A stretch of DNA of 37,377 nt from an uncultured Saprospiraceae bacterium. GTDB lineage: Bacteria > Bacteroidota > Bacteroidia > Chitinophagales > Saprospiraceae. Positions 36,869-37,377 of this stretch are shown piece by piece. Numbering within the stretch: the stretch's first letter is position 1; every line of letters starts with the position of its first letter. Made by a program: the position numbers and the translations under genes. Below the pieces are notes generated by a model, which saw only the letters and a list, made by a program, of their open reading frames with translations, did no database searches and was not told the DNA's origin. Where the stretch lies: positions 1 through 37,377 of the forward strand of contig CALAJP010000068.1 in the NCBI GenBank assembly GCA_937922815.1, in the 5' to 3' direction.

Positions 36869-36942
36869 GGTCCTGTAGCTCAGCTGGTTAGAGCACCTGA
36901 CTCATAATCAGGGGGTCCATGGTTCGAGCCCATGCGGGACCA
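36869..36942 (+). tRNA. tRNA with CAU anticodon (elongator Met or Ile2)
   Basis: A full cloverleaf folds: the acceptor stem GGTCCTG/CGGGACC has one T-G wobble, with discriminator A at 36942. The D-arm is GCTC/GAGC, the anticodon arm CCTGA/TCAGG with loop CTCATAA (anticodon CAT), the variable loop has five bases, and the T-arm CATGG/CCATG has loop TTCGAGC. The pairing G1-C72 and the lack of three G-C pairs in the anticodon stem exclude initiator tRNA. Elongator Met and Ile2 (with lysidine) cannot be told apart by sequence alone. CCA is not encoded (ACT follows the stem), so it must be added by an enzyme. Confidence 0.95.
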
Positions 36943-36979
36943 CTAAAAGCACTCAATTAGAGTGCTTTTTTTGTTTGTA
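36911..36979 (+). repeat. 69-bp direct repeat, copy 1 (tRNA 3' part plus terminator)
   Basis: Covers the tail of the anticodon stem, variable loop, T-arm, 3' acceptor strand, spacer and terminator of the intact tRNA. It is identical to 37309-37377 over all 69 bases visible. The offset is 398 bases. The copy in the window ends at the window edge, so the repeat may be longer. Confidence 0.95.
36945..36972 (+). terminator. Terminator after tRNA(CAU), copy 1
   Basis: AAAAGCACTC (36945-36954), loop AATTA and GAGTGCTTTT (36960-36969) form a 10-bp stem that runs into a T tract. Confidence 0.92.
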
Positions 36980-36984
36980 AAAAG

Positions 36985-37284
36985 ATGAAAGGAACAACAT
37001 ATATATTATACAGCAAATCGGTAAATCGTTATTATATAGGAGCTACACAAGAAGGCATCCAAAAACGATTGGAATCACATAATGAAGGCAAGTATGGAGG
37101 TAAGAGTTATACTTCAATGGCTACAGACTGGGAGGTATATTTAGCAATAGAATGTGATGATTATAGCCATGCGATAAGGCTAGAAAGAAAGATAAAGTCT
37201 ATGAAAAGTCGAGTGTATATCGAAAATTTAAAAAAGTATAAAGAACTCATAGAGAAAATAAAGAAAGAAACTAAGGGCACCTGA
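36985..37284 (+). CDS. Small GIY-YIG nuclease between tRNA repeats
   Basis: A 99-aa protein made of a single GIY-YIG nuclease domain, similar in length to the YhbQ/UPF0213 group. Visible: TYILYS (the GIY strand), RYYIGATQ (YIG strand, Tyr17-Gly19), the catalytic Arg28 in KRLESHNEG with His32, and the metal-binding Glu67 in LERKIKSMKSRVYI. Substrate DNA or RNA is unknown. The gene starts only 6 bases after repeat copy 1. Its last two codons and its TGA stop fall inside the duplicated tRNA sequence, so it fills the space between repeats almost exactly. It is transcribed in the same direction as the tRNA, but an intrinsic terminator separates them. Confidence 0.9.
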   Translation: MKGTTYILYSKSVNRYYIGATQEGIQKRLESHNEGKYGGKSYTSMATDWEVYLAIECDDYSHAIRLERKIKSMKSRVYIENLKKYKELIEKIKKETKGT

Positions 37285-37342
37285 CTCTTCCGAAAGCTTT
37301 CGGAACACGGGGGTCCATGGTTCGAGCCCATGCGGGACCACT
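37277..37342 (+). pseudogene. Truncated tRNA(CAU) remnant carrying a palindrome
   Basis: Matches the 3' part of the intact tRNA in two blocks: GCACCTGACTC (37277-37287, equal to 36893-36903), and GGGGGTCC onward (37309 on, equal to 36911 on). The 5' acceptor strand and D-arm are missing. Between the blocks, the seven tRNA bases ATAATCA are replaced by 21 bases: an 18-bp palindrome plus CAC. The remnant cannot be a working tRNA. The T-arm and 3' acceptor strand are perfectly kept. Confidence 0.9.
37288..37305. repeat. Perfect 18-bp palindrome in the tRNA remnant
   Basis: TTCCGAAAGCTTTCGGAA equals its own reverse complement over all 18 bases. It sits at the position of the anticodon loop and replaces the anticodon. 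Its length is six codons and it is in phase with the GIY-YIG frame after that gene's TGA stop. Confidence 0.95.
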
Positions 37343-37377
37343 AAAAGCACTCAATTAGAGTGCTTTTTTTGTTTGTA
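37309..37377 (+). repeat. 69-bp direct repeat, copy 2 (at window edge)
   Basis: Identical to 36911-36979. Includes a second copy of the tRNA terminator. In copy 1 the next bases lead straight into the GIY-YIG start, so another nuclease gene may follow outside the window. Confidence 0.95.
37343..37370 (+). terminator. Terminator copy 2, after the tRNA remnant
   Basis: Identical to the hairpin at 36945-36972. It probably ends the GIY-YIG transcript. Confidence 0.88.

Follow-up and report, generated by a model that had tools for sequence, protein, structure and literature searches.

A perfect palindrome between tRNA-like segments as the putative right end of a small GIY-YIG nuclease unit in Bacteroidota

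Introduction

Near the end of a contig from an uncultured Saprospiraceae bacterium, a copy of tRNA sequence carries a perfect 18-bp palindrome, TTCCGAAAGCTTTCGGAA, in place of part of its anticodon arm, and a gene for a small GIY-YIG nuclease lies between this copy and the intact tRNA gene. What is the palindrome doing there? The initial annotation had considered three roles for it, as a nuclease target or recombination site, a marker that disarms the displaced tRNA copy, or an independent palindromic repeat that inserted at this spot; its interpretation is partly supported by what follows. We use the term window for the whole stretch of DNA that was analysed, 37,377 nt in length.

Several known systems invite comparison. 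Genomic islands that enter tRNA genes by means of a tyrosine integrase carry a copy of one part of the tRNA and so restore the gene, with crossovers that include the anticodon and T loops. Rickettsia palindromic elements are palindromic repeats of about 100–150 bp inserted in genes. Among GIY-YIG nucleases, SLX1 is a repair enzyme that processes branched DNA and needs a partner, and we know of no mobile context for the UPF0213 proteins. In fungal mitochondria, an endonuclease ORF (of the GIY-YIG type in Glomus atp9) enters a gene, supplies it with a new 3′ end and displaces the native one downstream (PMC3630166). Such endonuclease mORFs, which carry a duplicated 3′ end of the gene, are described for Allomyces atp6 and for Glomus atp6, atp9, cox2 and nad3 (PMC3630166).

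The palindrome and its locus

The palindrome is exact, as had been claimed, and is the only perfect palindrome of at least 18 bp in the whole window, where 0.38 are expected from base composition. As single-stranded DNA it folds into a 7-bp stem with a 4-nt loop. The features around it are collected in Table 1. An exact match to the tRNA had been described on both flanks; this holds at length on the 3′ side, where 69 nt are identical and include the terminator, and on the 5′ side for only 11 nt, or 14 nt with one mismatch. The bases replaced are likewise fewer than the ATAATCA first named: comparison with relatives indicates that ATAAT alone is replaced and that CAG is kept after the palindrome, the CAC of the window being this CAG with about one base changed. 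The stop codon of the nuclease ORF (TGA, 37282–37284) falls within the tRNA-like D′ segment.

Table 1. Features at the right end of the window
Feature	Position	Strand	Remark
Intact tRNA gene, anticodon CAT (tRNA-Met by ARAGORN)	36869–36943	+	Host gene; 3′ half probably derived from the element
tRNA 3′ half with hairpin resembling an intrinsic terminator	36911–36979	+	Putative left end of unit 1, polarity taken from relatives; identical to 37309–37377
Terminator-like hairpin AAAAGCACTCAATTAGAGTGCTTTT, then T run	36945–36969	+	Between tRNA and ORF
GIY-YIG nuclease ORF, 99 aa, UPF0213/SLX1-like	36985–37284	+	PF01541
D′ segment GCACCTGACTC	37277–37287	+	Copies 5′ side of anticodon arm; part of right end of unit 1
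18-bp palindrome TTCCGAAAGCTTTCGGAA	37288–37305	+	Apparent right terminus of unit 1; stands where ATAAT of the anticodon arm would be
CAC	37306–37308	+	Altered remnant of the CAG found after the palindrome in relatives
Displaced tRNA 3′ half with terminator	37309–37377	+	Putative left end of next tandem unit, continuing in contig C51

The contig ends where the repeat ends, at 37377. Another contig of the same assembly, C51, opens with the 3′ end of a GIY-YIG ORF that differs slightly from the one in the window, followed by the same palindrome (positions 52–69) and tRNA 3′ half and then by the truncated start of a third ORF. The window is therefore cut inside a tandem array. What looks like a single tRNA remnant would thus consist of two unit ends, the right one of unit 1 and the left one of unit 2, and the native tRNA half is not seen. 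With up to two mismatches allowed, the assembly holds two copies of the palindrome, those in the window and in C51, both within the array. Outside the array, the tRNA-CAT gene contains the sole complete copy of its own 3′ half in the assembly.

A fixed position and a maintained dyad

Relatives in the clade of the window nuclease, mostly 45–63% identical to it, come from Maribacter, Prolixibacteraceae, Lacihabitans, Saprospiraceae, Porphyromonas and Paludibacter records, and nearly all of their units lie 36–130 bp past a tRNA-CAT gene. The palindrome follows the same CTGACTC and replaces ATAAT, at one identical nucleotide position across hosts of the Flavobacteriia, Bacteroidales, Cytophagales and Saprospiraceae. 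The variant found in the window recurs in Prolixibacteraceae bacterium JC049 (L144).

While its position is constant, the sequence of the palindrome changes in a compensatory manner. Hairpin pairing is complete (100%) in the 28 sequences compared. At palindrome position 2/17 (pair 13-28) the arms take all four Watson-Crick types (C-G 17, T-A 8, G-C 2 and A-T 1), and pair 18-23 is T-A in 20 sequences and A-T in eight. None of 500 shuffles matched the covariation score, a statistic that is inflated by relatedness. Recurrence and covariation together rule out a chance palindrome and the random decay of a duplicated tRNA. That decay was an unlikely origin had been argued from the window, and the argument is upheld by an arrangement that recurs phylum-wide, at clade-specific positions and with compensatory changes.

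A maintained hairpin might act in RNA rather than in DNA. The nuclease mRNA would then end in the remnant as a structured 3′ terminus, whose hairpin changes how the message is processed or how stable it is, and the order of tRNA, terminator, ORF, remnant and terminator does follow transcription. We regard this as very improbable: a G-U pair occupies only one of 196 palindrome stem cells in the 28 sequences while C-G, T-A, G-C and A-T swap freely, a pattern closer to symmetry in DNA than to pairing in RNA, and the units match no Rfam family at the gathering score except tRNA and, in one case, an unrelated RNase P, so that neither a group I or II intron nor any other RNA was found.

Two further properties of the clade concern the ends of the units. 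The D′ segment and 3′ half of the remnant resemble the tRNA of their own host more than those of other hosts (0/2000 permutations, to which host relatedness contributes). Four truncated array ends (L148, L164, L167 and L161) break inside or right at the palindrome; these are a supporting hint of nuclease action, although palindromes are fragile in general, and such breaks could follow from that.

Polarity of insertion

The direction in which a unit enters its target was read from an orthologous tRNA-Ala locus in 30 genomes of one genus, where 12 sites are occupied and 18 have no GIY unit, most of the latter being without any upstream unit as well. A terminator of the ACCCAAAC/GTTTGGGT type follows the intact tRNA at 11 of the 12 occupied sites and at none of the 18 others (Fisher p 2e-7). 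The native type, which is the one seen at sites without a GIY unit, stands behind the last remnant at eight occupied sites. The unit thus arrives with a tRNA 3′ half and terminator of its own in addition to the ORF, D′ segment and palindrome, and by the comparison of empty with occupied sites the palindrome marks where an inserted element that restores the tRNA ends on the right. One occupied site (L229) has no element-type terminator, which counts against this reading.

At the tRNA-Ala locus of these relatives, then, terminator sequences indicate that the element supplies a replacement 3′ end and pushes the native 3′ end downstream; the same replacement probably took place at the window's own locus. 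The unit evidently sits inside a tRNA gene and ends on the right in the palindrome, which directly adjoins the displaced native half. Such a place at the insertion junction would suit the target or recombination site of the initial annotation. That the displaced tRNA copy is disarmed by the palindrome is also correct, as an incidental effect.

In the same genus (L202–L231) the anticodon stem of tRNA-Ala alternates between CTACGC/GCGTAG and CTTGCC/GGCAAG, which is unusual for a tRNA and has no clear link to occupancy.

Distribution of the family

A profile search found relatives of the GIY-YIG protein in 189 of 296 Bacteroidota genomes sampled; within the order of the window's host they occur in 54 of 119 genomes. 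Loci were gathered by similarity, and the counts given here describe the sample, not the phylum. Tandem arrangement was seen for 12 of 131 distinct units, and 91 have a same-strand tRNA gene no more than 160 bp before their start. Among the 99 units that could be scored, tRNA sequence lies downstream in 89 and the palindrome is flanked by tRNA sequence in 68. A clear palindrome is absent in 31 of the 99, many of them decayed, which counts against the palindrome as the terminus of the unit. It was placed in the anticodon arm in 53 cases and in the T arm in 25, and in the typical remnant one of these arms is replaced by a CCG...CGG palindrome. In a locus from another family (L013), a hit for the 14-bp core of the palindrome, tRNA-Ala GGC is followed by a GIY-YIG ORF and then by a second tRNA-Ala sequence in which TCCCGAAAGCTTTCGGGA takes the place of the entire anticodon arm. 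The tRNA types used are Met/CAT, Val, Asp, Asn, Ala, Pro, Phe, Gly, Arg, Lys, Leu, Glu, Ser and Thr.

In three loci (L075, L077 and L048) the ORF runs on through D′ and the palindrome, such that the annotated C-terminus, AQLVRVPHVRD and similar, consists of residues encoded by tRNA and palindrome. Short units with no nuclease gene were seen upstream of many tRNAs (L202–L205, L210, L211, L214, L223 and L230, also L031, L033 and L047). They combine the 5′ half of a tRNA with a broken T arm, have their palindrome in the anticodon arm, measure ∼88 bp in L223 and are probably non-autonomous 5′-half elements. Outside Bacteroidota, a Phycisphaerae MAG (L171) has GIY-YIG units of similar layout, with a palindrome before a tRNA-like T arm.

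Searches of viral contigs, PLSDB and phage records gave no relative of the window protein, and phage or plasmid cargo was rejected accordingly. Comparisons with NCBIfam and PHROGs gave nothing informative. We found no description of this family or arrangement in the open-licence literature; a subscription paper could exist.

The nuclease

Residues Y6, Y17, R28, H32 and E67 are invariant in a wide alignment (A1), with R28 and H32 conserved in at least 90% of a close one. The closest solved proteins by sequence are UPF0213 members BH0048 and EF2693, then SLX1, with profile matches to 1zg2 (E 7e-12) and 7cq2 (E 3e-5). The AlphaFold2 model (pLDDT 90.8) is a single small domain with no obvious DNA-binding module, and Foldseek places it nearest to UPF0213 and SLX1, with I-TevI matched weakly. 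UPF0213/SLX1 GIY-YIG proteins (1zg2, 7cq2 and 6seh) are thus closest to the window nuclease in both sequence and fold. The link between such a nuclease and tRNA genes is new to us.

A tree of 90 nucleases tracks the tRNA type of the adjoining gene, with 29 changes compared to 60.8 when types are shuffled (0/200 as low; relatedness inflates this statistic). Apart from occasional switches, nuclease lineages appear from the tree to keep to particular tRNA types.

This fidelity, along with a palindrome position fixed per clade as for a specific cut site, would be explained equally well by homing, in which the anticodon or T arm of an intact tRNA gene is cut by the nuclease in a naive genome and repair copies the unit in, the palindrome only marking and destroying the cut site in the displaced copy. 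The logic is that of the fungal mitochondrial mORFs (PMC3630166). We nevertheless think homing unlikely. Any sequence would serve to destroy a site, which leaves the conserved CCG...CGG arms and the kept dyad symmetry unexplained; the protein is a single small domain; and the upstream tRNA is intact and, in the window's clade, resembles an uncut target.

Proposed mechanism and its significance

On balance we lean towards a different reading, that the palindrome is the right terminus of a small mobile unit which inserts into a tRNA gene, and that its hairpin is recognised or cut by the SLX1/UPF0213-like nuclease. Comparison of loci shows insertion into the tRNA gene, apparent restoration of its function, a displaced half, tandem growth, target fidelity and a maintained dyad; the hairpin as substrate of the nuclease is putative. 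The unit, of ∼400 bp, would comprise the tRNA 3′ half, terminator, GIY-YIG ORF, D′ segment and palindrome, and would enter the tRNA gene in the anticodon arm, or in the T arm in other clades. The upstream tRNA stays intact by virtue of the unit's own 3′ half, and the native half with its terminator ends up downstream, fused to D′ and palindrome. The perfect dyad could form a hairpin or cruciform, and its recognition or cleavage by a structure-specific nuclease would leave ends with tRNA sequence on either side (D′ and 3′ half). Guided by homology, these ends may recombine with a tRNA gene of that type, which would insert the unit when the host is new and extend the array when it is old. The displaced tRNA copy would, as a side effect, be non-working and probably not cut again as a tRNA gene. 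The intact tRNA is itself a plausible target, yet is uncut, which counts against this mechanism.

By analogy, the closest known kind of element is the fungal mitochondrial mORF, with the same insertion logic. Shared features are an endonuclease ORF with conserved catalytic residues (PF01541), replacement of the 3′ end (seen in relatives) and empty sites. The unit described here differs in being bacterial, in using tRNA genes and a single-domain UPF0213/SLX1-like nuclease, in carrying its terminator along and a palindrome at its right junction, and in forming tandem arrays. Like REP/RAYT systems it has a nuclease-type gene beside short palindromes, dispersed in some genomes; unlike them it has a GIY-YIG ORF and no Y1 (TnpA-like) transposase, its palindromes lie inside tRNA arms, and this genome has two copies, both in the array, rather than many dispersed ones. 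It is unlike a tyrosine-integrase island in its 400-bp length, its one ORF (GIY-YIG, no integrase) and the palindrome at the junction. Rickettsia palindromic elements, for their part, show no association with a nuclease gene or with halves of a tRNA. The features tested do not support identity as a REP/RAYT element, an intron or an integrase island.

More tentatively, and as something we hold possible rather than probable, these loci may represent an undescribed phylum-wide class, whose SLX1-like GIY-YIG nuclease brings about its own mobility by acting on a palindromic hairpin between stretches of tRNA homology, and which includes non-autonomous 5′-half units; the dispersed TCCCG...CGGGA palindromes are possibly moved by this enzyme too. 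If so, most Bacteroidota genomes would carry selfish units in tRNA genes, unnoticed as a 'GIY-YIG protein' plus a 'tRNA pseudogene', and such units would account for contig breaks and false tRNA calls beside tRNA genes. They would provide UPF0213-like proteins with a role and a common palindrome class of the phylum with an origin, together with many clean, comparable insertions for studying target recognition by a minimal nuclease that lacks a DNA-binding domain.

Dispersed palindromes

The initial annotation had called for counting the palindrome in this genome and in others. Here it is confined to the array; elsewhere its 14-bp core is also found at unrelated sites, such as the tips of ordinary terminators (G203). 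The core occurs in 19 of 298 genomes of the order, compared to six for a reversed control. In four genomes (G024, G037, G008 and G068), TCCCGATAGCTATCGGGA is dispersed away from any tRNA or nuclease gene. In a further genome (G031, contig C44; L035, L060 and L108), TCCCGATAGCTATCGGGA interrupts the GIY-YIG ORF with a frameshift in tandem copies. In G068 three TCCCG...CGGGA palindromes (1213–1231, 1293–1310 and 1422–1437 of L138) lie inside the RNase P RNA gene (RF00010). In a genome of the same family as the window's host (G190), CCGAAAGCTTTCGG stands at 102 places, at some of them within another palindrome, and five GIY-YIG relatives are present as well.

Such copies, the one in the nuclease ORF and those in the RNase P RNA gene included, are what would be expected of an independent repeat, a REP-like family of Bacteroidota hairpins that moves by other means and gathers in tRNA copies that are already dead. 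This suggestion, made at the outset, finds some support in the other genomes and is weakened in the window's own, where both copies are inside the array. It also has to face the non-random placement in remnants, which falls on the same nucleotide throughout the CAT clade, and the fact that the palindrome abuts the insertion junction. We consider it improbable as an account of the window, somewhat more so than homing; an independent repeat family that is used by the units, or that uses them, is possible.

Hairpin tips are the site of the dispersed palindromes in part only (G008 and G190), a minority effect: 25% of 56 contexts are of this kind compared to 3% with shuffled pairing.

In five loci (L133, L135, L136, L116 and L106), dispersed palindromes stand at the tips of larger CCCCTCC...GGAGGGG inverted repeats.
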